Origin: Candidatus Mcinerneyibacteriota bacterium
Lineage (GTDB): Bacteria > Macinerneyibacteriota > Macinerneyibacteria > Macinerneyibacteriales > DSCS01
Direction: 5' to 3'
DNA length: 54,789 nucleotides
NCBI GenBank assembly: GCA_016937175.1
Contig: JAFGWL010000036.1
Coordinates: 1-54,789, forward strand
Positions 6,089-26,372 of this stretch are shown here, one piece after another. Position 1 is the first letter of the stretch. Every line of letters starts with the position of its first letter. The notes under the pieces were generated by a model that saw nothing but the letters and a program-made list of their open reading frames with translations, was not told the origin of the DNA and ran no database searches. A program made the position numbers and the translations under genes.

Positions 6089-7849
6089 TCACTCTTCAAA
6101 AAGGGTTGCAGGCGTATCCTGAAGAAGTCTCCGGGCTGCACGCAGGGTTTCTCGGGCAAAAGCCTGATCCGGCTGGGGGCCGGGTGTCTGTGTCTCGCAG
6201 ACCCGGCGGGGAAGCGAAAGGTCCTCCCACCGAAACCCCAGTTCTTCCTTGAGGGAGAGTTTGGCACGGTAAAGCTCCAGCCCTTTCTCGAGAAGGGACT
6301 CAGGCAGGCTGAAGCCTGCCGCCCGGGAAAGTTCCGAAATCAAAGAAGGGGAGTAGATGTTTCGGGCGAAAAAACAGACGACAAGGGAGGATAGTATGTG
6401 ACGGAAGGACTCTTCTTTGATAAGAGTCAGAGCGAGATGGTCCGGAGACGAGAAGACTTCTTTGTCCATTTTTTGGTCCAGGGCATACCCGGCATTGTCC
6501 AGATGGCTGTGCCGGATTCCCAGGAGAAACCCGAGATGAGCTCCGATGCCCGTATGATATCCCGGCATCTCATTCTTCCCGAAGACAAGGGCGAAATCTT
6601 TCCCTCCGTAAACTTCTGCCAGGGCAGCGCATCCTTTCCGGGCCGTTTCAAAGAAAGGTGACGGGGCAAAACAGATCTTATCGATCAGATCAAGATAGGC
6701 CTCTGTCTGTCCCCAGGAGGGGGGATTTTTTACGAAGGCTCCAGGAGGAAGGAGCCCCTTTGCCCCGGCCTCCGTTATCCAGGCCAGGATGACTCCCGTA
6801 CTCATGGCATCCATACCGTATTGCTCTACGCGGTCGATCAGGCGGAGGACATCACGGGCCTCAGTGACTCCGATCATGGATCCCAGGGCGTAGAGAAGTT
6901 CATAATCGTAGGAGACATAAGATGTCTGATAAAAATAGGGCTCCGAGGGAGCTTCAAGGCGGAGGGCTGCCAGATGGATACAAGCGACGGGGCAGTGGGC
7001 GCAGGCCAGTCTCCGGCTCAGAAAACGGGCCGCCATTTTTTCTCCGGACAGGGAATCGGCTTCAGGGCCGGTCAGGCTCTTTCTGGTCAGATTGCAGACA
7101 GGAAGAGCTCCCATCTCGTGGAGGGGGAGGATGTTGGCCGGAGTCCCCAGGTCGTGATATTTTTTCATGATATCGGATTCTGTCATCTCTTTATAGAGTT
7201 CCTGATAAAGAGTTTTGTATCGGGCGGGATCTGAGACCCGGATCCCGCGGTTTCCCTTCAGGACGATTCCTTTCAGCTTTTTCATGCCAAAGACAGCTCC
7301 CAGCCCCATCCGCCCGAAATGCCGATAGGTCTCTGTCGTTACAGAAGCGTAAGATACTTTCTTCTCCCCGGCGGGGCCGATCCTTAAAATAGACCGCAGA
7401 CCGGCGCCTCCTTCTTGTTCCCGCATGATACGCGCCGGTGTGGAGCAGTTTTTCATGCCCCAAAGAGAACGGGCGTCTTTAAAACGGGCTCCCTCTTCAT
7501 CCACAACGAGATATTGGGGGAAAGGAGCCTGGCCCAGTACGACGAGAGCTCCGTATCCGGCCATCCGTAAAGATACGGCGCTGCGCCCTCCGGCATGGCT
7601 TTCCCCGTAATTCCCGGTCAGGGGTGAGAGAAAAGAAGCCACTGTCTTGGAAGCCATGGGGTAGAGTGCGGTGAAGGGACCTACGGCAAAGACGATGGGG
7701 CCTTCCGGAGAGCGCCCCCGATATTCTCTCAAAAGAGCCGATGAGACCCCGGAGCCGCCGATAAAATCAGAAAAGAGATCCGGCCGCTCTTCCACAATGA
7801 AGCTTTGTGCGGACATATCGACGATGAGGACCCGGTGCAGAGTCTTCAT
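6089..7849 (-). CDS. Aldehyde ferredoxin oxidoreductase (tungsten enzyme family)
   Basis: A 586-residue protein of the aldehyde:ferredoxin oxidoreductase family, which oxidises aldehydes to acids with a tungsto-bispterin cofactor and ferredoxin as acceptor. The [4Fe-4S] ligands are seen as Cys283, Cys286 and Cys290 (CAHCPVAC) and Cys492. The N-terminal pterin domain shows FIGGSGV and LTGNYGESHAGGR. Length fits the family (about 600). The ATG after GGAGGG overlaps the stop of the upstream polyferredoxin gene by ATGA, so the two are coupled. The aldehyde used is unknown. Confidence 0.92.
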   Translation of the reverse strand: MKTLHRVLIVDMSAQSFIVEERPDLFSDFIGGSGVSSALLREYRGRSPEGPIVFAVGPFTALYPMASKTVASFLSPLTGNYGESHAGGRSAVSLRMAGYGALVVLGQAPFPQYLVVDEEGARFKDARSLWGMKNCSTPARIMREQEGGAGLRSILRIGPAGEKKVSYASVTTETYRHFGRMGLGAVFGMKKLKGIVLKGNRGIRVSDPARYKTLYQELYKEMTESDIMKKYHDLGTPANILPLHEMGALPVCNLTRKSLTGPEADSLSGEKMAARFLSRRLACAHCPVACIHLAALRLEAPSEPYFYQTSYVSYDYELLYALGSMIGVTEARDVLRLIDRVEQYGMDAMSTGVILAWITEAGAKGLLPPGAFVKNPPSWGQTEAYLDLIDKICFAPSPFFETARKGCAALAEVYGGKDFALVFGKNEMPGYHTGIGAHLGFLLGIRHSHLDNAGYALDQKMDKEVFSSPDHLALTLIKEESFRHILSSLVVCFFARNIYSPSLISELSRAAGFSLPESLLEKGLELYRAKLSLKEELGFRWEDLSLPRRVCETQTPGPQPDQAFARETLRAARRLLQDTPATLFEE

Positions 7850-13401: not shown

Positions 13402-14440
13402 AGAACGCCTCCAGCCGTTCTTTTTTTTACTTATCTTTCTCATATCCCTCCCGGTATGTCTTTATGCCGGGAACCCTGAATTAATAGCAAGAAGCCGGTC
13501 TCAATGGACCGGCGTGGCTGTGACAGGGGAAGGGCGTCTCTTTGTCTCTTTTCCCGCCTGGGGTAAAGGGTTTCTCTTTCCCCTGGGAGAAGTGGTCGAA
13601 GGAGAAGTCCGTCGTTTTGAACCGAGGGATCGAAAGACAGGGGGCAGGATAACCTTGTCCAATGCCCAGAGTCTGAGGGGAGGCGCAGAGGGCCTGATCT
13701 GGATCCTGGACAATGCCAATCCCGATTTCAAAGGAGTCCGTTCCCCGGGGCCGCGGCTGCTGGCTGTGGATGTAGAGAGCGGGGTTCTTGTCTCGGAATA
13801 CCGCTTTTCAAGAGAGTCTTATAAAAAGAACTCCTATTTGAATGATTTCTGCATCTGCACAAAACAGGCAGAGGCCTATGTCTCCGACTCGGGAACAGGA
13901 GGGATCGTCGTCATGGATCTGGAGAGCGGGGAAAGCCGGCGTTATCTGGACGGGACTCCTTCCGTGACCGCTGAAACGTCCACACTGATTATCGGGGGCT
14001 CTCCCTTCAGAATCACAAGCCATGTGAACGGGATCGCCCTGGATAAGAGAAAGGGAGTTCTCTACTATTCAGCCTTATCGGGGCATACTCTCTATCGTAT
14101 CTCTGTTTCGGCTTTTCAGATACCGTTTGTCCATGGAGCGCTTTTCAGCGTCCTTGTAGAACCACAAGGGAGGATTCCCGCTTCTGACGGGATGATTATT
14201 GATCTCCAAGGGCGTCTCTGGATCACCGGAGTCGAGACGGGACGGATCTGGGGTGTGACTCCTCATCAGGGAGCCAAAGACCTTTTCCCGGGGTTTTCTG
14301 TCTCCTGGCCCGACTCTCTGGCGGAAGACAGCCGGTCTCTCTATCTCACCTCTTCGGATATTCAGGGACGCGACGGTTTCTATGAACTGTACAGGCTTCC
14401 TTTATCCCGGGAGAGTCAGCTATCTGAAGAGAGAGAGTGA
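13379..14440 (+). CDS. Secreted major-royal-jelly/Yellow-family-like protein
   Basis: A 353-residue secreted protein. The ATG at 13379 gives a basic N-terminus (MPFLRGSRERLQ), a hydrophobic core and a likely cleavage after CLYA. The mature part matches the major royal jelly protein family: a six-bladed propeller with ITLSNAQSLRG, GLIWILDNANPDF, YVSDSGTGGIVVMDLESG and LYYSALSGHTLYRIS. The family is best known from insects, and bacterial members are of unknown function, perhaps binding small amines or sugars. Its 3' end overlaps the convergent MATE gene by 25 bp. Confidence 0.82.
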   Translation: MPFLRGSRERLQPFFFLLIFLISLPVCLYAGNPELIARSRSQWTGVAVTGEGRLFVSFPAWGKGFLFPLGEVVEGEVRRFEPRDRKTGGRITLSNAQSLRGGAEGLIWILDNANPDFKGVRSPGPRLLAVDVESGVLVSEYRFSRESYKKNSYLNDFCICTKQAEAYVSDSGTGGIVVMDLESGESRRYLDGTPSVTAETSTLIIGGSPFRITSHVNGIALDKRKGVLYYSALSGHTLYRISVSAFQIPFVHGALFSVLVEPQGRIPASDGMIIDLQGRLWITGVETGRIWGVTPHQGAKDLFPGFSVSWPDSLAEDSRSLYLTSSDIQGRDGFYELYRLPLSRESQLSEERE

Positions 14441-15762
14441 ATCCACTTCCCCGACCGAAGCCGGCGGAAGGCGACCCAGGATTTAGCCAGTTCTTCTAGC
14501 CCGGCTCCCATAAACACAACGGGAAGCGGAAGATGCAGAAGAAACGCCGCCAAAGCCGCCATGGGCAGCCCGACGATCCAGAGCGCTGCAAGATCCACAA
14601 AAAGACAATATCTTGTGTCTCCTCCGCCCCTGAATACGCCGACCACATTGGTCACGTTAAACGCCCGGAAGGGAAGGATGACTCCGTAAAGGCGGAGAAG
14701 GAGGACGGCATTGTCTCGGACCTCGGAGGTGATATCAAAAAGAGAGAAGATGAGGGAAGCCGAAAGGGCTAATATCGTCCCCAGGCCTAGTCCCAGGAGG
14801 AAGGAGAAACGGGAGAGCTTAAACCCGAGACCTTTTGTCTCCTCCAGGTCTCCCCGGCCTATGGAATGGCCGATGAGGGTGGCTGTGGCTGCTCCGATCC
14901 CGATGAAAAAGACAAAGGCGAGCCGTTCCACACTGTTTTCAACCTGGATGCTGGCTATAGCCGTAGTCCCCATTCGGGCGTAGATGACATGATAAAGGGT
15001 GACCCCGAGAGACCAGAGGATCTCGTTCAACATGACCGGGAGGGAGATAGCCAGTACACGCGTGATAAAAGGGCGGGTCAGGGAAAAGAGGGCTCGTGCA
15101 GGGGCCAGGACCGGGATCTGTTTCCACCGGATGAAAAGAAGAAGAAGGGCTGATTCGACCATACGTGCAGCCAGGGTGGCCAGGGCCGCTCCCGGAAGCC
15201 CCAGGGCAGGGAATCCAAAGTGGCCGAAGATAAGAACATAATTAAGAAAGATATTGACCAGGAGGCATGCGACACTGGCATAGAGGGACGCGAGGGGTTT
15301 GGCCACCGCCCGGAGAGCCATGGAGAAGGTAAAGGAGAGGGCTGTGACAAAGTAGCTCCAGGAGACGGTCTTTAAATAGGAGGCCCCGGCGGATATTACG
15401 GCAGGGTCGGGGGAATAGAGAGCGATAAGGCGTTCGGGGGCGAAGAAGGCAAAAGCGAAAAAGAGGAGCGCTGCCCCTTGGCTTAAGAGAAGGGCCAGGC
15501 CGATGGTGCGGTAGATGTTCGATTCATCCCGGCGTCCCCAGAACTGGGCGATAAAGATGGCCCCCCCGCTGTTGATACCGAAGAGGGTGAGGACAAAAAG
15601 GAAATAGATCTGGTTGGCGATTCCTGCCCCGGCGATAAAGATATCCCCCAGACGGCTGATCATAAAGACATCCACCAGGTTGATCGAACTCAGGATGAGG
15701 TTCTGAAGGGCGATGGGCGCAGCGATGGCCCAGAGTTGTTTCCAGAGTCGTGAGGCAGACAT
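14416..15762 (-). CDS. MATE family multidrug exporter
   Basis: A 448-residue membrane protein with 12 hydrophobic helices in two homologous halves. It shows MATE-type segments ISRLGDIFIAGAGIANQIYF in the first half and GTTAIASIQVENSVERLAF in the second. MATE proteins export cationic drugs using Na+ or H+ gradients. The ATG at 15760-15762 follows AAAGGAG; a frame with 15 more residues is unlikely. It is divergent from a TetR gene, which may regulate it. Confidence 0.92.
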   Translation of the reverse strand: MSASRLWKQLWAIAAPIALQNLILSSINLVDVFMISRLGDIFIAGAGIANQIYFLFVLTLFGINSGGAIFIAQFWGRRDESNIYRTIGLALLLSQGAALLFFAFAFFAPERLIALYSPDPAVISAGASYLKTVSWSYFVTALSFTFSMALRAVAKPLASLYASVACLLVNIFLNYVLIFGHFGFPALGLPGAALATLAARMVESALLLLFIRWKQIPVLAPARALFSLTRPFITRVLAISLPVMLNEILWSLGVTLYHVIYARMGTTAIASIQVENSVERLAFVFFIGIGAATATLIGHSIGRGDLEETKGLGFKLSRFSFLLGLGLGTILALSASLIFSLFDITSEVRDNAVLLLRLYGVILPFRAFNVTNVVGVFRGGGDTRYCLFVDLAALWIVGLPMAALAAFLLHLPLPVVFMGAGLEELAKSWVAFRRLRSGKWIHSLSSDS

Positions 15763-15778
15763 TATTCTCCTTTGAAGG

Positions 15779-15804
15779 AGTATACCAAAAGAAATGCGGT
15801 ATGC
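15779..15804. promoter_or_regulatory. MATE promoter -10 box within an imperfect inverted repeat
   Basis: TATACT (complement of 15779-15784) serves as the MATE -10 box, with a weak -35 ATGGCA 17 bp upstream. GTATACC at 15780-15786 and GGTATGC at 15798-15804 form an inverted repeat (6 of 7 matches, 11 bp spacer), a possible TetR operator. Confidence 0.35.
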
Positions 15805-15834
15805 CATGTTATTTCAGAGAGAAACAAAAAAAGC

Positions 15835-15862
15835 TTGAAAAAGACGGAAAACCCTTTATACT
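15835..15862 (+). promoter_or_regulatory. Promoter of the TetR gene and possibly the downstream operon
   Basis: TTGAAA, 16 bp and TATACT. Only six bases separate the -10 box from the ATG at 15869, so the message is predicted to be leaderless. Confidence 0.65.
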
Positions 15863-15868
15863 CTCCAA

Positions 15869-16456
15869 ATGCCGACACGCAAGGAAATCGCAGAGATCGC
15901 TCTTGACCTCTTCCTCAGGGAAGGATACGAGGGCGTCTCCATCAAAAATATTACAGATGCTTTGGAGATCACCAAGGGAAGCCTCTATTATCACTACACG
16001 GGGAAAGAGGACCTCTTTCTCAGGACGGTGGACCTTTTTCTCCAGCAGATCTATGCCAGGTATGAGGACCTGATCCCCGATGAAGTCGATAGCGCAGAAG
16101 CTCTTCAGAGACACCTGGTGGAGCTGTTTGCCAAAACCGTCGATTTTCTCAATGAAAAAGATTACGATGCAGGATTCCTGCATATGATCATCCAGGGAAA
16201 GAGAGAGACTCCCCTGGTTTTGAAGACCCTTGAGGCCCGCTATAGGAAGGTTCATGAGCGTATCACGGTTATTTTTAAAAAGGAATATGATGCCGGGCGC
16301 ATCCGTTCCTTCTTTGATCCTGAACAGGAAGCAGGGGAGCTCATCATCCTTTTTGAAGGCTATATGATGTTGTGGATCAAGACCGGCAGCCTTTCTCTCA
16401 AAGAGACGTTCAAAAAAGCCCTGGACTATAAATTCTCCACATTACTCAATACATGA
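15869..16456 (+). CDS. TetR family transcriptional regulator
   Basis: A 195-residue TetR repressor. The N-terminal helix-turn-helix is clear: AEIALDLFLREGYEGVSIKN, then ITKGSLYYHYTGKEDLF. The ligand-binding C-terminal domain is not diagnostic. No Shine-Dalgarno precedes the ATG, in keeping with a leaderless message. It is divergent from the MATE exporter and lies 16 bp ahead of the SDR gene that opens the sphingolipid-type operon, so either could be its target. TetR proteins often respond to lipids or drugs. Confidence 0.9.
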   Translation: MPTRKEIAEIALDLFLREGYEGVSIKNITDALEITKGSLYYHYTGKEDLFLRTVDLFLQQIYARYEDLIPDEVDSAEALQRHLVELFAKTVDFLNEKDYDAGFLHMIIQGKRETPLVLKTLEARYRKVHERITVIFKKEYDAGRIRSFFDPEQEAGELIILFEGYMMLWIKTGSLSLKETFKKALDYKFSTLLNT

Positions 16457-16472
16457 TCTTCGGAGTTCCGGA

Positions 16473-17321
16473 GTGAAAAAGAAAGTCCTTGTCATAACAG
16501 GTGCATCCTCAGGGATCGGGTATGAGACGGCTCTTTTGTTTTTGAGAAGAGGGTGGTCTGTCTATGCCTGTGGAAGGAACAGGGAGAAACTCCGCAGACT
16601 GGAAGCCGAAGGAGCTGTTGTGTCAGCTTTCGACCTGGCCGACCGCTCCTCGTCGGAGGCCTTTGTAGAAAAAGTCCTGGACGAAGAGGGCGCCCTCGAC
16701 CTTCTTGTGAACAATGCAGGCTTCGGCCTCTACGGGTCCGTGGAGGATATTCCCGATGAAGCAGCCAGGCATCAATTTGACATCAATCTTTTTGCTGCAG
16801 CCCGGCTCATCCGGGTTGTCCTTCCCTCCATGCGCCGGCGAAGGCAGGGACGTATTATCAATGTATCTTCCATGGCCGGGATCATCTCTTTTCCCATGGG
16901 GGGGTGGTATCACGCCTCGAAGTTCGCGTTGGAAGGGCTTAGCGACTGCCTCCGCCAGGAGGTGGCTTCTTTCGGGATCCGGGTGGTCCTTGTGGAGCCG
17001 GGAGCGGTAAAGACCCCCTGGCCTGACAAGGCTCTCCGGGAGATGGAAGAACGCTCAGGGGAAGGCCCTTATGGAGAGACAGGCAGGCAGATCGGGTCTC
17101 TTTTCCGTGAGTTTTACAAAAGAGGGGTCACTCCGGAGAAGGTCGCTGCTTTAATCTGGAAAGCTGCCGCGTCACGGTTCCCCAGGCGGCGTTATGCCGT
17201 TCCGGCCCATTCACGGATTTTTATTTTTTCCCGCCGCTTTTTGGGGGCATGTTTCTGGGACAAAAGTGTCGCCCTGGCCCTGAAACTGGCCGGAGAGGGA
17301 AAAAGGAACGGGGAGTCCTGA
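16473..17321 (+). CDS. Short-chain dehydrogenase/reductase (possible 3-ketosphinganine reductase)
   Basis: A 282-residue classical SDR. TGASSGIG (9-16) binds NAD(P), NNAG is at about 83-86 and the catalytic YHASK follows VSSM with its serine. The C-terminal ~60 residues are long and basic, as in membrane-associated retinol or 17-beta-hydroxysteroid dehydrogenase-like SDRs. It starts with GTG at 16473 after GGAG. Bacteroides uses an SDR as 3-ketosphinganine reductase, so a role in the downstream sphingoid pathway is plausible. The operon, however, already has a CerR-type enzyme, so the assignment is open. Confidence 0.87.
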   Translation: MKKKVLVITGASSGIGYETALLFLRRGWSVYACGRNREKLRRLEAEGAVVSAFDLADRSSSEAFVEKVLDEEGALDLLVNNAGFGLYGSVEDIPDEAARHQFDINLFAAARLIRVVLPSMRRRRQGRIINVSSMAGIISFPMGGWYHASKFALEGLSDCLRQEVASFGIRVVLVEPGAVKTPWPDKALREMEERSGEGPYGETGRQIGSLFREFYKRGVTPEKVAALIWKAAASRFPRRRYAVPAHSRIFIFSRRFLGACFWDKSVALALKLAGEGKRNGES

Positions 17322-17322
17322 G

Positions 17323-17388
17323 ATGAAACCTATTCTCGACTTGACGCTTCTCCTCCTCTCCCCTATAATCGGGTTTATCGAATTATGA
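17323..17388 (+). CDS. Possible 21-residue hydrophobic peptide
   Basis: An ATG at 17323 lies one base after the SDR stop and 7 bases after GGGAG. It opens a 21-codon frame, MKPILDLTLLLLSPIIGFIE plus a final Leu, whose stop overlaps the next start as ATGA. The peptide could span the membrane once. The same bases form a strong promoter, so the frame may be accidental. Confidence 0.25.
   Translation: MKPILDLTLLLLSPIIGFIEL
17341..17369 (+). promoter_or_regulatory. Strong promoter within the sphingolipid-type operon
   Basis: TTGACG, 17 bp and TATAAT end 15 bp before the ATG at 17385, predicting a leader of about 9 nt. It would drive the membrane protein and the ceramide genes independently of the TetR and SDR genes. 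Confidence 0.7.
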
Positions 17389-17804
17389 TGAACGAAGGTT
17401 ATTTTCATATAATAAGCGTCCTGGCGCCTTTTTTTATATTCCATTTTATCTTTAATATCTATTTTTATTTTTTCAAAAGCCGGCAAAGCAATATTATCGC
17501 CGTGATCCTTGTCGTCCTGGCTTCTCTCTGCCTCTTCATCTTTTATGATCCCTGGATGGCTATGATGACAGGGCTCTCTTTTGCCGGTCTCATCATTGAG
17601 AAAGTCGTCTTGAAAAGGATCCCCGTCCTCAACAAGATCTTTGCATCTCTTTTGATCTATCTCCTCTTTGTAAGGCGCTATTCCGGGGCTCTCTTCGCGG
17701 TCTTTCTCCTGGATTACTGTGTGGAGTTTTTAACAGTCGGTCTCTATGTATTAAAGGCAAGAAAGGGGACAGTTCATGATCCGAGTACAAAGAGTCGAGA
17801 ATAA
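17385..17804 (+). CDS. Small integral membrane protein, unknown function
   Basis: A 139-residue protein that I do not recognise. It has about five hydrophobic segments (roughly residues 9-30, 38-55, 57-75, 83-95 and 100-122) and a short basic tail. There is no clear Shine-Dalgarno ahead of the tandem ATGs at 17385. Its end overlaps the start of the acyltransferase gene by 29 bp, so it is co-transcribed with the ceramide genes. It may handle lipid transport or anchor the enzymes, but this rests on context only. Confidence 0.7.
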   Translation: MMNEGYFHIISVLAPFFIFHFIFNIYFYFFKSRQSNIIAVILVVLASLCLFIFYDPWMAMMTGLSFAGLIIEKVVLKRIPVLNKIFASLLIYLLFVRRYSGALFAVFLLDYCVEFLTVGLYVLKARKGTVHDPSTKSRE

Positions 17805-18888
17805 AGAAGATTTGAAAACATTTGTCCGACTGCCCTTTGCTCTCTACAGCGGAGACCCCCACTGGGTCCCGCCCCTCCTAAAAGAAGAATACCAGATGTT
17901 CCACCCGGGCCGGAATCCCTTTTACGCCCATGCGGAAGTGGCTCTTTTCCTGGCTTTTCGGAACCAAACCCCCTGCGGCCGTATTGCGGCTGTCATCAAT
18001 CACCGGCATAATGAGTTTCATCAGGAAAAGGCAGCCTTTTTTGGCTTTTATGAAGCGGACTATGAAGAGGAGGCCTCTTTCGCCCTCTTTACGGCTGCCT
18101 GTGATTTTGCACGTGAAAAGGGAATGAAACTCCTCCGCGGCCCTATGAATTTTTCTACCAATGAGACGTGCGGTATGCTTGTGGACGGTTTTGAACGGGA
18201 CCCGGTGGTCATGATGCCCTATAATCCGGCCTATTATCCCCGTCGTGTAGAGAGTTTCGGTATGGAAAAGGCCATGGATCTCTACTCCTATTTGTATGAT
18301 GCAGAGAATCCCCATACAAAAAGGATACTCAGGCTTGCTGATGCTGTCTCGGCCAGACATTCCTACAGCCTCCGGCCCATAACGAAGAAAAACGTCTTCC
18401 GGATCCTGGAGGATTTTAAAAAAGTCTATGACAGGTCCTGGGAAAGGAACTGGGGATTTGTACCTATGACACCTGCGGAAATGGATCACCTGGCAGCACA
18501 GCTGAGGGATGTCCTCGAACCGGGGTTGGCCTTTCTCCTGCTTGATGGAGAGGTTCCCATCGGAGCTTCTGTGAGCTTGCCGGATATCAATCAGGTTTTA
18601 AAAACCCTCAAAGGAAGGGTGACCTTGCGGGGATTGTTCAGGGCCAAAAAGGCGTTCAGGGAGATCGATACAGTCAGGACGCTGATATTGGGCGTTGCTC
18701 CGGAGTTCAGAAAAAGGGGGCTTGAACTTATGCTCATCGCTGAGACTATCCGCCAGGGGATGAAAAAGGGGTATCGGTTTGCCGACCTGGGCTGGATCCT
18801 GGAAAATAACGACCTCATGAACAGGGAGCTGGGAAACATGGGAGCCAAGATCTATAAGAGGTATCGGATCTATGAAATGGGATTATGA
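17776..18888 (+). CDS. YghO/bCerS-type acyltransferase (putative bacterial ceramide synthase)
   Basis: A 370-residue GNAT-fold protein of the YghO family, to which the Caulobacter ceramide synthase bCerS belongs. That enzyme acylates 3-ketosphinganine using acyl-CoA. Family hallmarks are visible: SGDPHWVPPLL near residue 26, NPFYAHAEVALFLAFR, GRIAAVINHRHNEFH, FFGFYEADYEEE, LRGPMNFSTNETCG and, at the end, LGWILENNDLMNRELGNMGA. AAAGGGG precedes the ATG. It is followed at once by a CerR-type dehydrogenase and an SPT-type enzyme. Family identity is strong; the enzymatic role rests on homology and context. Confidence 0.85.
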   Translation: MIRVQRVENKEDLKTFVRLPFALYSGDPHWVPPLLKEEYQMFHPGRNPFYAHAEVALFLAFRNQTPCGRIAAVINHRHNEFHQEKAAFFGFYEADYEEEASFALFTAACDFAREKGMKLLRGPMNFSTNETCGMLVDGFERDPVVMMPYNPAYYPRRVESFGMEKAMDLYSYLYDAENPHTKRILRLADAVSARHSYSLRPITKKNVFRILEDFKKVYDRSWERNWGFVPMTPAEMDHLAAQLRDVLEPGLAFLLLDGEVPIGASVSLPDINQVLKTLKGRVTLRGLFRAKKAFREIDTVRTLILGVAPEFRKRGLELMLIAETIRQGMKKGYRFADLGWILENNDLMNRELGNMGAKIYKRYRIYEMGL

Positions 18889-19861
18889 TTATTGTATAAC
18901 GGGAGCCACAGGCTTTGTGGGCTCCAATATTGTCGATGAGATCCTGGAAACAGAGCCTGAGGCCCGTATCCTCTGCCTGGTGAGAAAGAGCAGCGATATC
19001 ACCTATCTTCATAGCAGGGGGGTGAAAACAGCTGTGGTCGATTTTTCAGACCCCCTGACCATGGAGGGCCCGGTGAGTAAGAGCCGCTATCTTCTTCACC
19101 TTGTAGGACTGACCCAGGCCAGGCGGGACGAGATGTTCAGAAAGGTGAACAGAGACCTTGCAGAGATCATGTTAAGCCTTTATCTGAAGCACAGGAAGAC
19201 CGTCAAAGGATATCTCTTCATGAGTTCCCTGGCTGTGGCGGGACCGCGCCGTGCGTCCCACGCCGATCCCTGTATCCGCAGCGGATGCAGGCCTGTCTCC
19301 CGCTACGGGATCTCGAAGCTCGAAGGAGAGTCTTTGCTTTGGCCCTGGCTGGATGACCCCTCGCTTCATATCGTCATCGTCCGGCCGCCGGCGGTCTACG
19401 GCCCCCGGGACAAGGATATGAAGATTACATTTGAATGGGCCCGCAGGGGGATCGCCCCGGTGATCGGATGGAAGCCGAAAAAGGTGACGCTGATCCATGC
19501 CCGGGACCTGGCCCGTTTCTCCCTGACAGCGTTGAAAAGTCCTCCCCAGAAGGATCCGATCTTTCATGTCCACGGAGGCGAGGCCCTGACGCAAATGGAG
19601 ATCTACCGGGAGGCTGCTGCTGCGTTCGGGCGGAGACGCTTGTTCACAGTCCATGTCCCCTACTGGGCCGCTCTGTTTGTCGCCTGGCTCAATGAGCTGT
19701 GTGGGAAAAACAAGATCTTAAACCGGGAAAAGGTCAGAGAAATAAATGAGGACTGGGGGTATGAGCGGAATGATTTCGAACGGATGGGACTAAAGCCCCG
19801 CTATTCCCTGCGGGAAGGGGTATCGGATACCTACAGGATAAATAATCCTTGCAGGGGATAA
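18872..19861 (+). CDS. NAD-dependent epimerase/dehydratase, CerR-like (ceramide reductase)
   Basis: A 329-residue extended SDR. GATGFVGSN near residues 11-19 is the NAD(P) site, and the active-site SRYGISKLEGE carries the YxxxK pair. VRPPAVYGPRDKDM and TLIHARDLARF are typical of the CerR-like group. In Caulobacter CerR reduces the 3-keto group of oxidised ceramide after acylation. The start at 18872 is forced because the Rossmann strand begins a few residues later; it overlaps the acyltransferase gene by 17 bp. The order acyltransferase, reductase, SPT supports the assignment. Confidence 0.82.
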   Translation: MKWDYDYCITGATGFVGSNIVDEILETEPEARILCLVRKSSDITYLHSRGVKTAVVDFSDPLTMEGPVSKSRYLLHLVGLTQARRDEMFRKVNRDLAEIMLSLYLKHRKTVKGYLFMSSLAVAGPRRASHADPCIRSGCRPVSRYGISKLEGESLLWPWLDDPSLHIVIVRPPAVYGPRDKDMKITFEWARRGIAPVIGWKPKKVTLIHARDLARFSLTALKSPPQKDPIFHVHGGEALTQMEIYREAAAAFGRRRLFTVHVPYWAALFVAWLNELCGKNKILNREKVREINEDWGYERNDFERMGLKPRYSLREGVSDTYRINNPCRG

Positions 19862-19876
19862 AAATTAACTTAAAAT
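19849..19876 (+). promoter_or_regulatory. Possible internal promoter ahead of spt
   Basis: TTGCAG, 16 bp and TAAAAT lie 28 bp before the spt ATG, across the only gap (43 bp) in the ceramide gene set. Confidence 0.4.
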
Positions 19877-19904
19877 AGACCCGTAGAAGGGTGGAAGGAG
19901 CATT

Positions 19905-21086
19905 ATGGACATCTTTGAAAAAGCCTATCTGTATGATTTGGCGGATAAAGCCCGGGAGGCGGGGATCTACCCCTATTTCCGTGTCATTCAGTCGGACCAG
20001 GATACGAAAGTGATCATGAACGGGCAAAAGGTCCTGATGTTGGGGTCCAACAGCTATCTGGGCCTTACAAATCATCCCCATGTCAAGAAAAGAGCTGTCA
20101 AGGCCATTGAAAAATACGGGACAGGCTGTGCCGGTTCCCGGTTTCTCAACGGGACCCTCGATATTCATTTGGAGCTGGAAGACCGCCTGGCCGCGCTGGT
20201 CGGGAAAGAGGCTTCCCTTGTCTTTGCCACAGGTTACCAGGCTAACCTGGGAGCTATTTCAGCTGTAGCCAGCGGGAAAAACGACATTATCGTAACAGAT
20301 AAATTGGACCACGCCAGCATTTTAGACGGGATCAGACTCTCCTTCGGGAAGATGGTCCGATATAATCATGCCGATATGAACCATCTGGAAAAGGTCCTGA
20401 AACTGCATAAGAACCATCCCAAAGTCATTGTCACAGACGGGATCTTTTCCATGGACGGGGACATTGCCAACCTTCCTGCCATCACTTTCCTGGCTGAAAA
20501 GTACGGAGCCCGTGTCATTGTGGACGATGCCCACGCCGTGGGGGTCCTTTCTGCAGACGGAGGGGGAACGGCCAAACATTTCGGACTCACCGAAAAGGCT
20601 GATCTGGTCGTGGGGACTTTCTCCAAATCTCTGGCATCTGTAGGGGGATTCGTAGCGGGAGAGAAAAAGGTGATTGATTTCATCAAGCATAATGCCCGGT
20701 CGCTTATCTTCAGTGCCTCTCTTCCTCCGGGTTCGGCCGGATCTGTCATGGGCGCTCTGGATATTATGGAAAGAGAGCCGGAACGGATCGAGAGGCTCTG
20801 GGAGAACACAACCTTTATGCTGGACGGATTCAAGAAGCTTGGATTTAACACCGGCCATGCGGAGACCCCCATCATCCCTGTCATCGTGGGAGATGATTAT
20901 CAGTGTTTCCGTATGTGGAAGATGCTTGAGGAAGCCAACATCTTTGTCAACCCCACTGTCTCCCCTGCTGTTCCCAAGGGTCAGGCCCTTATCCGGACCA
21001 GTTTCATGGCGACACATAAAAAAGATGAACTGCAGTACGCTCTGGATAAGTTTGAAGAGACAGGAAAACAGTTGGGTATTATCTGA
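19905..21086 (+). CDS. spt: Serine palmitoyltransferase (alpha-oxoamine synthase family)
   Basis: A 393-residue PLP enzyme of the alpha-oxoamine synthase family. SPT condenses serine with palmitoyl-CoA to 3-ketosphinganine, the first step of sphingolipid synthesis. PLP-binding residues are His136 (DHASI), Asp207/His210 (VDDAHAVG) and Lys241 (GTFSKSLASVGGF). The N-terminal IYPYFR and CAGSRFLNGTLDIH resemble Bacteroides-type SPT more than KBL or BioF, and neither a threonine dehydrogenase nor biotin genes are nearby. GGAAGGAG precedes the ATG. It starts the run spt, lipid kinase, nucleotidyltransferase. A glycine C-acetyltransferase activity is the main alternative. Confidence 0.85.
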   Translation: MDIFEKAYLYDLADKAREAGIYPYFRVIQSDQDTKVIMNGQKVLMLGSNSYLGLTNHPHVKKRAVKAIEKYGTGCAGSRFLNGTLDIHLELEDRLAALVGKEASLVFATGYQANLGAISAVASGKNDIIVTDKLDHASILDGIRLSFGKMVRYNHADMNHLEKVLKLHKNHPKVIVTDGIFSMDGDIANLPAITFLAEKYGARVIVDDAHAVGVLSADGGGTAKHFGLTEKADLVVGTFSKSLASVGGFVAGEKKVIDFIKHNARSLIFSASLPPGSAGSVMGALDIMEREPERIERLWENTTFMLDGFKKLGFNTGHAETPIIPVIVGDDYQCFRMWKMLEEANIFVNPTVSPAVPKGQALIRTSFMATHKKDELQYALDKFEETGKQLGII

Positions 21087-21088
21087 GG

Positions 21089-21967
21089 ATGAAAAAACGG
21101 ATCAAGCTGATCGTCAATCCCGATTCGGGCCAGAGACATATGGAGGAGTATCTTCCCAAGGTGATGTATATCCTGGGAAGCAACGGGTATGCCGTGGATG
21201 TGGATATTGCCCGGGAGAAAGAAGAGATTGTCAGGGCCTTGAAGGACGCTTCCGGAGAAGTGGATTATGTCTACATCTGCGGAGGGGACGGGACGGTCAA
21301 CCTGGCTATCAACGAATTCGCCGGGCAGGATATGCCTTTGGGGATCATTCCTGTGGGAACGACCAATGTCCTGGCCATGGAGCTCAGCATTCCCATCAAC
21401 CCGTTTGAAGCCGCCTACTATCTGGCCAATTTCGCCGAGCCCAAAGCTTATGATGTGGGGCGGATCGGAGAGAACTACTTCGGGCTTATGGTAAGTTACG
21501 GCTTTGACGCCCACACGATCAGTAAAGTCGACTTCAACCTGAAAAAGATCATCGGGCGATACGCCTATGTACTGGCCGGTTTTTCCACTCTCTTCACCTA
21601 TAAGCCCGAACCCGTCTATGTGGACCTGATGGACGGGTCGGAGCCCAAGAGAGGGTATTTCGTCGTGGTGGGGAATGCCTCTTTTTACGGAGGGGCCTAC
21701 AGCATGACGCCTCTGGCCAAAATGGATGACGGGCTCCTTGATGTCTGTATTTTCAAAGAAAAAGGGGTCTTGAAGTCCATATCTTTTGCCATTGATGTGT
21801 TACGCGGGACCCATATCAACGCCCAGGATGTGGAATATCATCAGGTGCCCCGTGTCAGGCTTTCCACAAAAAGAGCGCCGGCCCAGGTAGACGGGGACTT
21901 TTCTTCGGGTGAAATGGAATCGGTTGAAATCGCGATCTGTCCCAAAGCAGTCAAAATATTAGTCTAG
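21089..21967 (+). CDS. Diacylglycerol/sphingosine/ceramide kinase-like lipid kinase
   Basis: A 292-residue protein of the DAGK catalytic family (YegS/DgkB). IVNPDSG near residue 8 and GGDGTVN (65-71) form the ATP site, with PVGTTNVLA following. The C-terminal domain has GYFVVVGNASFYGGAYSMTP and VDGDF. It starts 2 bp after the spt stop, so it is coupled to it. The Caulobacter ceramide kinase CpgB belongs to the same broad family, so phosphorylation of ceramide or a sphingoid base is the favoured role; diacylglycerol is the alternative. Confidence 0.87.
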   Translation: MKKRIKLIVNPDSGQRHMEEYLPKVMYILGSNGYAVDVDIAREKEEIVRALKDASGEVDYVYICGGDGTVNLAINEFAGQDMPLGIIPVGTTNVLAMELSIPINPFEAAYYLANFAEPKAYDVGRIGENYFGLMVSYGFDAHTISKVDFNLKKIIGRYAYVLAGFSTLFTYKPEPVYVDLMDGSEPKRGYFVVVGNASFYGGAYSMTPLAKMDDGLLDVCIFKEKGVLKSISFAIDVLRGTHINAQDVEYHQVPRVRLSTKRAPAQVDGDFSSGEMESVEIAICPKAVKILV

Positions 21968-21980
21968 ACAAGGAGGAGAG

Positions 21981-22967
21981 ATGAAGATCATCATACCTGC
22001 CGCCGGGGCCGGGACACGTCTCCGCCCTCACACTCACCTCCTGCCCAAGGCCATGCTTCAAGTGGCAGGACGCCCCATCATCGGCCATATCATCGATACG
22101 GTGACCCGGGACCTGGAGGCCAGTGAAATCATCATCATCGTAGGTTACAAAAAGGAACCCCTGATGGATTGGGTGCATCGGTCCTATCCGGATCTACCCG
22201 TCCGGTTTGTGGAGCAGAAAGAGATGCTGGGATTGGGGCATGCGGTTTTCACTGCGGCTCCCTACGTAAACGACGATGACGAGCTCTTTATTATCCTGGG
22301 AGATACCATCGTCGATATGGACTTGCCCGCCATGGTGAGCCAGGGATGTTCCACCCTGGGGACACGGGAAGTCGAGGATCCAAGACGCTTCGGGGTGGCC
22401 GAAGTCCGTGAAGGAGTGATCTCCCGGCTTGTGGAAAAACCAGATATCCCACCCAGCCGGCTGGCTCTTATGGGTGTCTATTATATCCGGGAAGCAAAGG
22501 TTCTCTTTGATTCCATCAAAGTTATCATGGACCGGGGGATCAAGACAAAGAACGAATATCAGATCACAGATGCTTTGAATCATATGATTTCAGGCGGGGT
22601 CACGATGCGGACCTTTAACGTTGACAATTGGTTTGACTGCGGTACCATAGAAACGCTCCTCGAGACGAACCGCTTTCTGCTCAAAAAACAAAAACTTCCG
22701 GAGAAGGAAGCCGGCACAGGATCCGTCCTCATCCCCCCTTTCTTTATCGGAGAAGGGGCTGTTGTGGAAGATTCCGTCATCGGGCCTGACGTCTCAGTGG
22801 GAGCCCATGTGACCATAAAGGATTCCATCATAAGGGATTCCATCATCTATGACGGGGCCGATATCCGCAGCGTGGTTGCAGAGAAGAGTTTATTCGGAAC
22901 GAACTGTAAAGTCCGGGGGGTATTCAGCCGGATGAATACGGGGCCCGATACGCAGCTGGGAGAATGA
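21981..22967 (+). CDS. Sugar-phosphate nucleotidyltransferase with hexapeptide tail
   Basis: A 328-residue NTP-transferase. [20 protein letters not shown] at the N-terminus is the nucleotide-binding signature of glucose-1-phosphate uridylyl/thymidylyltransferases. GDTIVDMD is the metal-binding region. The last ~70 residues carry left-handed beta-helix repeats ([20 protein letters not shown]). AAGGAGGAGAG precedes the ATG, 13 bp after the kinase gene. It probably makes an NDP-sugar or other activated headgroup; linkage to a sphingolipid headgroup is inferred from position alone. Confidence 0.85.
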
Positions 22968-22989
22968 ACAAAATAAAGGAGGCTGGAAG

Positions 22990-24171
22990 ATGAAAAAACC
23001 AAAAGGGCAATATCTTTTTACTTCAGAATCAGTAACAGAGGGGCATCCCGATAAAGTGGCCGATCAGGTCTCCGATGCCATCCTTGATGAATTTCTGGCC
23101 CAGGACCCCGAAGCTCATGTAGCCTGCGAGACCCTTGTCACCACCGGACTGACCATGATATCCGGAGAGATCAGTAGCCGGAACGCTTATGTGGATATCC
23201 CGGGTATCGTCCGGAACACTATCAAGGAGATCGGTTATATCAGTGCAGATTACGGATTTGATTATAATACCTGTGCAATCCTTACCTCCATCGATGAACA
23301 GTCAGGGGATATCGCCCGCGGGGTAAACCGGGAGAAACATATGGAGCAGGGGGCCGGGGACCAGGGGTTGATGTTCGGTTATGCCGATGACGAGACCCCG
23401 GCTTTGATGCCTCTTCCCATCTATTATGCCCATAAGCTGTCACGCCGCCTGGCTGAAGTACGAAAAAAAGGGATCCTGGACTTTCTCCGGCCTGATGGAA
23501 AGACCCAGGTGACCATAGAATATGACGGCTACACGGCAAAAAAGGTCAATACCATCGTCCTGTCGACGCAACATGACCCTGATATCGAACAACGGGAGCT
23601 GAGAGAAGCTGTTAAAAAATATGTCATCAATCCCATCCTCCAGGAAGAGTGGGAGGAGAAACAGGTGGAATATGATGATGTGGTCGTCCACATCAACCCC
23701 ACAGGCCTTTTCGTCGAAGGAGGCCCCAAGGCTGATACAGGACTGACCGGGCGAAAGATCATTGTAGATACATACGGAGGGATGGCTGCACACGGAGGCG
23801 GAGCCTTTTCAGGCAAGGATCCCTCAAAAGTTGACCGGTCTGCAGCTTATGCGGCCCGTTATGTAGCCAAGAATATCGTGGCTGCGGGGCTGGCCAAAAT
23901 GGTCGAGGTACAGCTCGCGTATGCCATCGGAGTAGCTGAGCCTGTCTCTGTCATGGTCTATCAGTTCGGAACGGGGAAGGTCGATGATGCCAGGATGGCA
24001 GCTGCGCTGCGGAAGGTCTTCGATTTCCGCCCGGCGGCGATCATCGACCGGCTGGACCTTAAACGCCCCATCTATAAGAAAACAGCTTCTTACGGGCATT
24101 TCGGAAGAAATCTTCCGGAGTTTACCTGGGAGCAGACAGACATGGCCGAGGACCTGTTGAAAAACTTATGA
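22990..24171 (+). CDS. metK: S-adenosylmethionine synthetase
   Basis: A 393-residue methionine adenosyltransferase making S-adenosylmethionine from methionine and ATP. Signatures are [20 protein letters not shown] at the N-terminus, [12 protein letters not shown], and the P-loop-like [19 protein letters not shown]. Length is normal for the family. AAGGAGG precedes the ATG, and the gene ends in an ATGA overlap with the TPR lipoprotein. No SAM riboswitch is seen, since the gap upstream is only 22 bp. Confidence 0.98.
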
Positions 24172-26372
24172 GAACGAAAAGATCCCTCCTCCTCTTCACG
24201 CTTCTTGTTCTTTTCCTCCTTACCGGATGCGGCTACTACAATACGTTCTATAATGCTAAAAAATATTATGAAAAGAATGATTATAAGACTTCGCTGGAAA
24301 AATGTGACAAGATCCTTTCCGGAGAGAAGTATAAAGCACTCCACGACGATGCCCTTTTTCTAAAAGCCCGGATCTATCATAAAACGGGAGACAGGGAAAA
24401 GGCCGTTAAGTATTATTCCATGCTTCTGGAGAAGCCGGCAGAATCCAAATATCAGGAGAAGGCCCGTGGAGCTTTGTTTACCCTCTATAGTTCCGGGGGG
24501 GATTATCAGAATGCCTATACCCTCTATTCCCAGGTCGATAAGGAGAACAGGACTCCGGAAATGGATGTGGCCTTTGCCAAACTCCTCTATCTTCGGAAGT
24601 ATGCCGGAGAACTGGAGTCTCTGTCCCGTGACTACGGGACCTCAACGGACATCGGCCGGGAGATCGCCCTTTATGCTTCGCTCCTGAGGGGAGACCGGCG
24701 GAGAGCGGGTGAACTTCTGAAGGCTTTCGAGGCCCCTGAAAAAAGTCAGTATCTCGCGCGCATCTTTTTTTTGCTGACATGCGATTCGTTTTTTGTCCCC
24801 TTTATGAGTTCCGGGATTCAGGAGCGGTATAAGGCACCCGTCGAAGTCCTGACCCCCGGAGGAGATACAGCCTCTTTTCAGGCGGTTTTGGACGAGATCG
24901 ACAGGTTGGGACAGAAAGAGCAGCGTTTTCTTCTCAGGGGGCTGTTTCGCCTTTTTGTGGAACAGGGACGTTTCTATGAAGCCAAAATGGCTCTCCTTAA
25001 GATGGAATCTCTCTCAGGTTCGCAGGGTTCCTCTGTCCCCACCATGGCGCTCATCGTAAATACCAATAAGCCCGTGGCCTATTCGGACCTTCCGACAGAC
25101 TGGAAGGGGTATCTCACAGACGGCCGGGGCCATTACCTCTATACAGAGGAGTATGAGGTCTATCAGCTGGTCAAGGGCCGATGGGAGAAGATCAATGCCG
25201 CCCTCCCCCCTGATGGGATCGAAGAGTATTCTATAACTGTCTGGGACGCTCTGAACAAGAGGTGGCTCTTTATCGCCGAGGGGAAAGAAGAATGGTTTGC
25301 CCTGAACATCAATGATTTTTCATGGGATACGATTTTTCTGGAAGGAGACGAACTTCCCAGGCTTCTCCCTGAAAGGCTCTATTACCATAACAGAAAGCTA
25401 TACTATTTTGATAGCATCGGATCCTTCTTTGTGGGAGATATCCGAGGGCGGGACAAGGTCACTGTAGAAAAGATCGAGGTCAAAGGGTGGCTTCCCCAGG
25501 TGAGCGGCTATACGGTCCTGGATTTCACACGCCTGGGATGGCTGATCCTCGTGGGAGGGAAAGAGGGGGATATTAACAACACCATGGCTTATACCCTGGA
25601 TATCAATGACCCGGATCCTTCCTGGAAAGAGCAGTATGCGGCAGCTCCTGTGGTTCTGGCCGACTACGTCCTCACTTCTTTCGATGCCGGGCGGTACAAG
25701 ATACTTCTCCTCTGGGATCCCCTTCAGGAGTATGAAAAGCCGGCGAAAGCCCTTCTGGCTGATTTCCAATCCTCAACGGAACGTCTGAGCCTTATCGACG
25801 TCCCCAAGACTCCCGAAGTCGTGGAGGATTTCTTCGAGTACGAGACTGCCGGGGATTATGGGAGTGACACCATTATCACTTACCGTGATCCTGACACGAC
25901 CTTTAACTCACTTCTTATCACGGTCATGTCGACAAATGTCCGCCAGCAGACCCTGGCTGATGATTTTCGGATGGGGAACGAGCCCCGGTCAGAAGTGAAG
26001 GAACAGGATCTTCAGGATATCCTTTTACAAGACCCTGAAAAGGAGGTCTTCCCCGAAGAGATGCTTCCTGTGATCAATGCACTGGACCAGCTCGATTCAG
26101 GCGGGGTGAACAACCCCCGTAAAGCGGGAGACCTCTATCTGGATGCGGGGTTTTATGAGAAGGCGGCCCTCTCCTATACCGAAGCCCTCGAAGAAGAACC
26201 CGGGGATAACCGGCTTCTTTACGCTTTGGCTTATGTTCATTTTCGTTATCTGAAGGAACCGGAGAAAAGCAGAGAGTATTTAAACCGTATCGATCTCCCG
26301 TCTGTTGAGGAGGAGTTTCTCCGTGAGCATATCATAAAGCTGAAGAGTGTCCTGGACTCCGGGGAAAAATGA
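24168..26372 (+). CDS. Large TPR-containing lipoprotein
   Basis: A 734-residue lipoprotein. A basic start, hydrophobic core and lipobox LLTGC predict lipidation at about Cys21. The mature protein begins [20 protein letters not shown], a phrase seen in FCB-group lipoproteins, and continues with two TPR-like helices pairs (about 30-130). The middle (about 280-560) is beta-rich and unrecognised, with a propeller-like rhythm. The C-terminus (about 650-715) has further TPRs ([20 protein letters not shown]). It overlaps metK by 4 bp and ends 2 bp from the convergent plsX. Probably an envelope scaffold; function unknown. Confidence 0.8.

Follow-up and report, generated by a model that had tools for sequence, protein, structure and literature searches.

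We have analysed a group of lipid genes in Candidatus Mcinerneyibacteriota bacterium, whose 1.88-Mb genome is 98.66% complete. The genes lie on contig JAFGWL010000036.1 of assembly GCA_016937175.1, and the window referred to below is the whole stretch of 54,789 nucleotides of that contig (positions 1 to 54,789). An initial annotation had placed seven open reading frames (ORFs) on one strand here and had read them as an operon for a ceramide-type sphingolipid: a short-chain dehydrogenase/reductase (SDR), a small membrane protein (TM5), a bCerS/YghO-type N-acyltransferase, a CerR-type reductase, a serine palmitoyltransferase (SPT), a lipid kinase of the diacylglycerol kinase (DAGK) type and a nucleotidyltransferase. 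All seven ORFs were confirmed, on the plus strand, and form a tightly packed and real operon (Table 1). Gene identities, order, conservation, selection and a promoter-like site were computed from the sequences.

Gene organization and start of the operon

By ORF coordinates, TM5 overlaps bCerS by 29 bp and bCerS overlaps CerR by 17 bp, and gaps of 43, 2 and 13 bp follow between CerR and SPT, SPT and the kinase, and the kinase and the nucleotidyltransferase. The first description of the junctions, as overlapping or spaced by 2–43 bp, fits the core genes; the SDR gene and TM5 lie further apart, with a gap of 63 bp. After a further 22 bp the run continues into a SAM synthetase gene, which is followed by a gene for a 734-aa protein with weak TPR-type matches.

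The phylum sample comprised three genomes: the window genome (G000), a congeneric one (L005) and one from another family of the same order (locus L085, genome G002). In the congeneric genome the neighbourhood recurs, with 10 of 10 query proteins matched. The order TM5-bCerS-CerR-SPT-kinase-nucleotidyltransferase-SAM synthetase is preserved in L085, at identities of 37, 48, 41, 70, 65, 48 and 68%, respectively. Because the neighbourhood recurs in L005 and, from TM5 onward, in L085, the arrangement is not a product of chance. No SDR orthologue was found in G002, where the contig stops short of the corresponding position and the genome is 88% complete, so that the gene is either lost or unsequenced there; the best match in that genome is 27% identical and has two internal stops.

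Ten promoter-like sites were found between 15500 and 24400 against 6.9 expected, so that their number alone means nothing. The site directly ahead of TM5 recurs at 5438–5466 of L005, with both hexamers and the 17-nt spacing identical. From the -35 hexamer through the start codon 36 of 44 bases agree (12 of 17 in the spacer, counted on the letters), the part of the gap 5´ of the -35 hexamer looks diverged, and the flanking genes differ by about 0.7 at their synonymous sites. The -10 hexamer ends 15 nt 5´ of the TM5 ATG, and the leader would be very short. From this computed, conserved site we infer that the main transcription unit probably starts just 5´ of TM5, at about 17376, which would leave the SDR and TetR genes outside it, with read-through from their side possible. 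The initial annotation had the operon extended upstream by both the SDR and the small membrane protein. TM5 probably heads the unit, and the SDR gene is probably a separate, less conserved one.

Table 1. Features of the sphingolipid locus and its surroundings (positions in the window)
Feature	Position	Strand	Basis
SDR, classical, upstream; possible second ketoreductase	16473-17321	+	occurs in genus; PRK06182 and KdsR model scores
TM5, membrane protein of 139 aa without known family; flippase candidate or possible membrane partner for bCerS and CerR	17385-17804	+	orthologues at corresponding position in L005 and L085
bCerS/YghO-type N-acyltransferase, tandem GNAT fold	17776-18888	+	homology to SPT-linked genes; model
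CerR-type extended SDR (putative 3-oxo-ceramide/3-ketosphinganine reductase)	18872-19861	+	PF01370; triad homology; motifs
SPT, nearest to CFB (Bacteroidetes) model	19905-21086	+	NCBIfam; PDB; tree; motifs
YegS/DAGK-family lipid kinase, putative ceramide (or sphingoid base) kinase	21089-21967	+	PF00781; PF19279; context
RmlA/GlmU-like sugar-1-phosphate nucleotidylyltransferase; putative pathway role	21981-22967	+	PF00483; TIGR01208
Sigma-70-like promoter TTGACG-17-TATAAT	17341-17369	+	11 of 12 consensus positions; top-scoring site in 15500-24400
SAM synthetase, co-directional, probably housekeeping	22990-24171	+	PF00438/PF02772/PF02773; same place in L005 and L085
TetR-family regulator, 16 bp ahead of SDR	15869-16456	+	PF00440, 45 bits
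MATE gene, divergent, ahead of TetR gene	14416-15807		

SPT and its partner enzymes

The product of gene 19905 scores best with the NCBIfam model SerpalmtaseCFB (570.5 bits), ahead of a BioF/Kbl-type model (433), glycine C-acetyltransferase (409), BioF (392), SerpalmtaseBetaP (364) and SerpalmtaseAlphaP (301 bits). By its sequence it is a member of the SPT clade, not a strict CFB equivalog. A search of the PDB gave 453.7 bits (E 3.7e-135) for the solved SPT 3a2b, which we take to be from Sphingobacterium multivorum, and 333.8 bits for the best chain not named SPT. Identity is 52.9% to 3a2b, 36.4% to E. coli Kbl and 30.7% to BioF. The motifs KYGTGCAGSRFLNGT, GTFSKSLAS and NPxVSPAVP are common to the window protein and 3a2b; E. 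coli Kbl has HGFGMASVRFICGT and GTLGKALGG. In a 91-row tree, made by a quick method with SH-aLRT support only and without the duplicate phylum records (L001, L003, L004, L086, L095–L097), the SPT and its two phylum relatives are united (support 100) within a clade of 85 rows that includes 3a2b (support 97). The phylum sequences stand beside, not inside, the Bacteroidota rows. Outside the SPT clade lie Kbl and BioF of E. coli, a Kbl of Phaeobacter, the paralogue encoded in the window genome, a further gene of L050 and one from Methylocystis. This phylogeny against KBL, BioF and SPT, which the initial annotation had proposed as a check, bears out the SPT identity, the protein clustering with 3a2b and not with glycine C-acetyltransferases; assignment to Kbl or BioF is rejected by PDB scores, tree and motifs.

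Bacteroidetes Spts use acyl-CoA and rhodobacterial Spts prefer a dedicated acyl-AcpR, as described in sections of PMC11324152. Since the SPT is nearest to the CFB model, the absence of acpR and aasR from the operon is unsurprising. The early remark that no dedicated acyl carrier protein (ACP) or acyl-ACP synthetase is encoded here is correct within the operon, but does not extend beyond it: other parts of the genome contain two AMP-binding genes similar to those of long-chain acyl-CoA ligases, at scores below curated cut-offs.

The association of SPT with bCerS and CerR was counted in the best 80 of 326 SPT relatives found in GTDB genomes, using phmmer with the window proteins (E 1e-3) on stretches cut by contig ends, which makes absences soft. 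Both partners were found in 21 loci, bCerS only in 14 (including two fusions), CerR only in three and neither in 42. The triads lie on one strand in 21 of 21 cases, with gaps of at most 76 bp in 20 and of 979 bp in the other. Their order is SPT-bCerS-CerR in 16 and CerR-SPT-bCerS in four; bCerS-CerR-SPT occurs only in the congeneric L005, and the window and L085 are arranged likewise. Spt-like genes have been described from metagenome-assembled genomes of 38 phyla, some hits being part of longer proteins (excerpts of PMC11334938). With triads this common and Spt-like genes this widespread, the core enzymes are not new, and the complete triad is not the remarkable find in a non-classical lineage that it was first taken for.

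Triads were also seen on plasmids. Those of Rubrobacter radiotolerans (L108:5908-9275) and Streptomyces sp. NBC_01001 (L160:4763-8045, followed by a condensation-domain gene) are actinobacterial and of an SPT-bCerS-CerR-like kind. A Roseomonas plasmid carries a Caulobacter-like cluster (L159:2934-15910) with genes for an ACP, an SPT-like protein, a DAGK, a CDP-alcohol transferase, two LptF/G permeases, bCerS and a nucleotidyltransferase.

The bCerS protein has no match in NCBIfam, and Pfam assigns it to GNAT only weakly, at 24.8 bits against a cut-off of 22. Of the 79 other loci, 34 have a gene near SPT that it resembles at 25–41% identity (36–41% in 26 of them), and it is 45% identical to its counterpart in the Rubrobacter plasmid triad and 29.8% to a plasmid protein annotated YghO. 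A model built from a 26-row alignment (mean pLDDT 92) has its best solved matches among tandem GNATs (7q3a, Z 24.2, 303 residues, rmsd 3.4). The match lists also contain N-myristoyltransferases (Z about 16) and GNATs with many other functions; likeness of the modelled fold to GNATs shows no function. Homology and model confirm the predicted type of protein, a GNAT-fold acyltransferase homologous to the SPT-linked bCerS/YghO gene. Genes of this type were also seen in six gut phage records (H46–H50 and one unlisted), at about 24–28% identity in the five listed; these records carry no annotation and could represent host DNA.

CerR matches PF01370 (80 bits). Of the 79 other loci, 23 have a CerR-like gene with which it shares 28–33% identity. 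Its motifs GxxGFxG and YGxSK are invariant in 18 of 18 aligned sequences. These comparisons confirm an extended SDR homologous to, and placed like, the triad reductase CerR, as annotated. The nucleotide-binding motif starts at about residue 11, and a signal peptide is not evident by eye.

Lipid kinase, nucleotidyltransferase and TM5

The kinase is of the two-domain YegS type, with a GGDG motif and a TIGR00147 score over the cut-off. It adjoins SPT in all three phylum genomes, each of which has a second, separate DAGK gene, and the 2-bp gap to the SPT stop in the window is a 1-bp overlap in L085. Such an SPT-abutting start in two families supports the claim that the kinase belongs to the operon. 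An alternative that we regard as possible but doubtful is that neither the kinase nor the nucleotidyltransferase has a sphingolipid role, the one being a general lipid kinase and the other an enzyme of sugar-nucleotide metabolism, both on a transcript with SAM synthetase. The gene run does extend into SAM synthetase, and a profile of nine kinases run over the 80 loci matched, apart from the L005 gene, only a gene of L050 on the opposite strand. Against this stand the abutting start, conservation of the kinase nearly like that of SPT in L085, a ratio of nonsynonymous to synonymous substitution rates (dN/dS) of 0.030 against L005, and the separate DAGK gene in each genome. The case for a bystander is stronger for the nucleotidyltransferase than for the kinase.

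The motif that follows GGDG is GTTNV in the operon copies, GTGND or GTAND in the second DAGK copies and YegS, and GSGNG in L050; the kinase of the Caulobacter-like Roseomonas cluster has GKTNL. The difference hints at another substrate for the operon kinase. Similarity to YegS (E 4.6e-20) exceeds that to the Roseomonas kinase, a stand-in for CpgB that is CpgB-like by its place only (E 0.001 over 104 residues). The listed features of CpgB, presence of GGDG and absence of CxxxCxxC (PMC10331486, in part), are found in the kinase, and the motif also in other lipid kinases. We consider it likely a ceramide kinase on the grounds of its context, and not of any assignment to CpgB.

The nucleotidyltransferase matches PF00483 (NTP_transferase, 104 bits), NTP_transf_3 (41 bits) and TIGR01208 (200 bits, below the cut-off of 320), and stands in the same place in L005 and L085. 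The window genome has four PF00483 genes, one of GlmU length, which rejects a role as the only GlmU-like enzyme. Compared with the bCerS-adjacent nucleotidyltransferase of Roseomonas, which is CpgD-like by place only and matches NTP_transf_3, it gave no significant match (E 0.64); identity as CpgD is not supported by this comparison with the Roseomonas proxy. CpgD makes CDP-glycerate, according to sections of PMC12275187, and lacking such a match a phosphoglycerate head group is without support. Two glycosyltransferase genes about 12 and 14 kb downstream (34784 and 37271) are too far away to be tied to the operon. Of the phosphorylated or glycosylated ceramide first predicted, the phosphorylated form is favoured by the tie of the kinase to the operon; a glycosylated one is possible, but no glycosyltransferase gene is adjacent.

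TM5 had been described as a five-helix protein. Simple hydropathy agrees with this number for the window copy, but counts only three helices for the L005 orthologue and three for that of L085; a low-confidence AlphaFold model (pLDDT 52, built from two sequences) has five. With five helices, the positive-inside rule for loops would put the N-terminus outside and the C-terminus inside. The orthologues, in the same place, are 86% (L005) and 37% (L085) identical, and H20, N24, E72, K73, K77, N83, K84, D110, Y111 and E114 are identical in all three sequences. With a dN/dS of 0.057 against L005 (dS 1.69; SDR and CerR yield no value, synonymous sites being saturated), TM5 is by sequence analysis an orphan under purifying selection. 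No match was found in Pfam or NCBIfam, and the best match to PDB profiles has an E of 0.34. In 31 of 33 genomes behind 33 of the 79 other SPT loci no homologue was found, and the weak matches in the other two (E 0.0025 and 0.0086) are short, one with two internal stops. None was confirmed in viral contigs and none found in plasmids, PHROGs and PADLOC not having been searched.

According to passages of PMC11087976, no ceramide flippase has been identified and the partners of CerR remain to be found. One speculative possibility, to which we attach low confidence, is that TM5 is such a missing membrane component, either an (oxo-)ceramide flippase or a partner that tethers both bCerS and CerR to the membrane and supplies the latter with reducing power. 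The proposal is based on the position of TM5 directly behind the promoter, its overlap with bCerS, its conservation in two families and the lack of a matching Pfam or NCBIfam family.

Proposed pathway and relation to known systems

The locus is very probably an operon for ceramide synthesis by the known set of Spt, bCerS and CerR, transcribed from the promoter 5´ of 17385, and its predicted product is most likely ceramide and then ceramide-1-phosphate. Of the original reading, the core enzymes, the single operon and the kinase are retained; the novelty of the triad and part of the interpretation of the accessory genes are not. We infer the reactions, the kinase substrate and the roles of TM5 and the nucleotidyltransferase as follows. 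SPT would condense serine with a fatty acyl-CoA, the donor suggested by its likeness to Bacteroidetes SPT, to 3-ketosphinganine. The tandem-GNAT bCerS would N-acylate this compound, most likely directly, to 3-oxo-ceramide, which CerR would reduce to dihydroceramide. Phosphorylation of ceramide, or of the free base, by the kinase would give an anionic sphingolipid. TM5 may serve a membrane step, either flipping or holding bCerS and CerR at the membrane, and the nucleotidyltransferase may activate a sugar for a head group that is assembled elsewhere.

Direct acylation of 3-ketosphinganine has been argued for in PMC11087976 (in part), and fusions of SPT and bCerS fit it as indirect evidence, with the reservation that fusion partners need not be consecutive. 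Two single ORFs of this kind were found, L039:7959-10319 (786 aa, Syntrophaceae UBA1163) and L072:8001-10391 (796 aa, candidate division FCPU426). Their SPT parts are sisters (support 100), and the fusion may therefore be one event. A search of 23 genomes of the class of L039 with the fusion matched 17; among four long candidates it was present only in the genome of L039 itself, and candidates G036, G037 and G044 were rejected as separate adjacent ORFs. The true fusions examined are thus L039 (the same gene as L139) and L072. No published SPT-bCerS fusion was found in titles and abstract openings in a limited literature search.

Several points weigh against the proposed pathway. The SPT score lies under the SerpalmtaseCFB equivalog cut-off of 640 bits. 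The quick tree has long branches, as the tool warned, and includes no typical rhodobacterial SPT. CerR shares just 28–33% identity with the triad CerRs. Identity of the kinase is 25–27% whether it is compared with YegS or with the second DAGK copies, and its substrate could be diacylglycerol or some other lipid. G026, a genome with one fusion (L039), also has separate SPT-like and bCerS-like genes. Caulobacter CerR is periplasmic, with its reductant unidentified (Discussion of PMC11087976); if this were so here, reduction and the ATP-using kinase would be on opposite sides of the membrane.

A eukaryote-like order, in which 3-ketosphinganine is reduced first, by the SDR or by CerR, and the sphinganine then acylated, appears unlikely to us. 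It draws support from loci in which an SDR gene lies directly 3´ of SPT, 7 of the 80 (L012, L013, L018, L020, L022, L023 and L024), all titled Bacteroidota or subgroups; KdsR was the best model for all four of the seven that were scanned, at 297–339 bits and below the cut-off of 400. In addition, BT_0972, itself not clustered with SPT, reduces 3-ketosphinganine in vitro, as described in part of PMC9278070. The SDR of the window, however, prefers the generic PRK06182 (302 bits, cut-off 305) to KdsR (189.5 bits), as does that of L005; by these scores pairs of SPT and a KdsR-like gene exist in Bacteroidota, but the window SDR is not clearly a member of one. The rest of the operon is present in G002, where no SDR orthologue was found in the 88% complete genome, and the fusions favour direct acylation. 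That gene 19905 encodes another alpha-oxoamine synthase (a glycine C-acetyltransferase or BioF-like enzyme) or uses another amino acid, the cluster then making a different aminoketone lipid such as a 1-deoxy- or sulfono-type base, is very improbable: the CFB cut-off is missed, the cysteate acyltransferase 28eh is among the solved relatives, and 1-deoxysphingolipids have been reported from euxinic Black Sea water (PMC11334938, in part), but tree and motifs place the protein with SPT, and its neighbours are bCerS and CerR.

A sphingolipid in place of lipopolysaccharide (LPS), as described for Sphingomonas in part of PMC11087976, was also considered. LpxC, the sole LPS gene searched, is above cut-off in all three phylum genomes, so that the lineage probably makes lipid A, and replacement of LPS is not supported. 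The public record of L005 bears the title 'Bacillota bacterium SpSt-1200', which looks wrong; its phylum is represented in the sample by three genomes, all with lpxC. Elsewhere in the window genome, one 334-aa frame (L100:988-1992) joins pgsA, with TIGR00560 over the cut-off, to a PgpA-like part that scores below its own. An aldehyde ferredoxin oxidoreductase gene on the minus strand of the window (6092-7849) suggests an anaerobe.

The compact operon, with five or six genes and no dedicated ACP, is suited to transfer into E. coli K-12, and offers one system in which to ask whether acylation or reduction comes first, a disputed point, and which acyl donor and kinase substrate are used. For E. 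coli BL21(DE3), a cluster of sphingolipid genes has been reported (PMC9386255). TM5 is a concrete candidate for the flippase or the CerR partner that the Caulobacter work has left unidentified.

In comparison with Caulobacter crescentus (Spt, bCerS, CerR, AasR, AcpR and CpgA-D; sections of PMC11324152, PMC10331486 and PMC12275187), the three core enzymes are of the same types here, and a kinase of the DAGK family is likewise present. The locus differs in being one operon, with no AcpR/AasR or LptF/G inside and with the orphan TM5 in addition, and the comparisons made do not assign its kinase to CpgB or its nucleotidyltransferase to CpgD. With the YegS/BmrU-type kinases the kinase shares PF00781, PF19279 and GGDG; it has GTTNV where YegS has GTAND/GTGND. 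As for Bacteroides thetaiotaomicron KdsR (BT_0972), the window likewise has a classical SDR beside the locus, but one that prefers a generic model. The triads of Bacteroidota (Pedobacter and Chitinophaga; L030, L037) are similarly tight and on one strand, with SPT in the same larger clade. The window differs from them in its order bCerS-CerR-SPT, found only in its phylum among the loci examined, and in the added kinase and TM5. The core enzymes and their spread among phyla were already known; what the locus adds is a compact operon with TM5 at its probable head and a kinase in translational reach of SPT.

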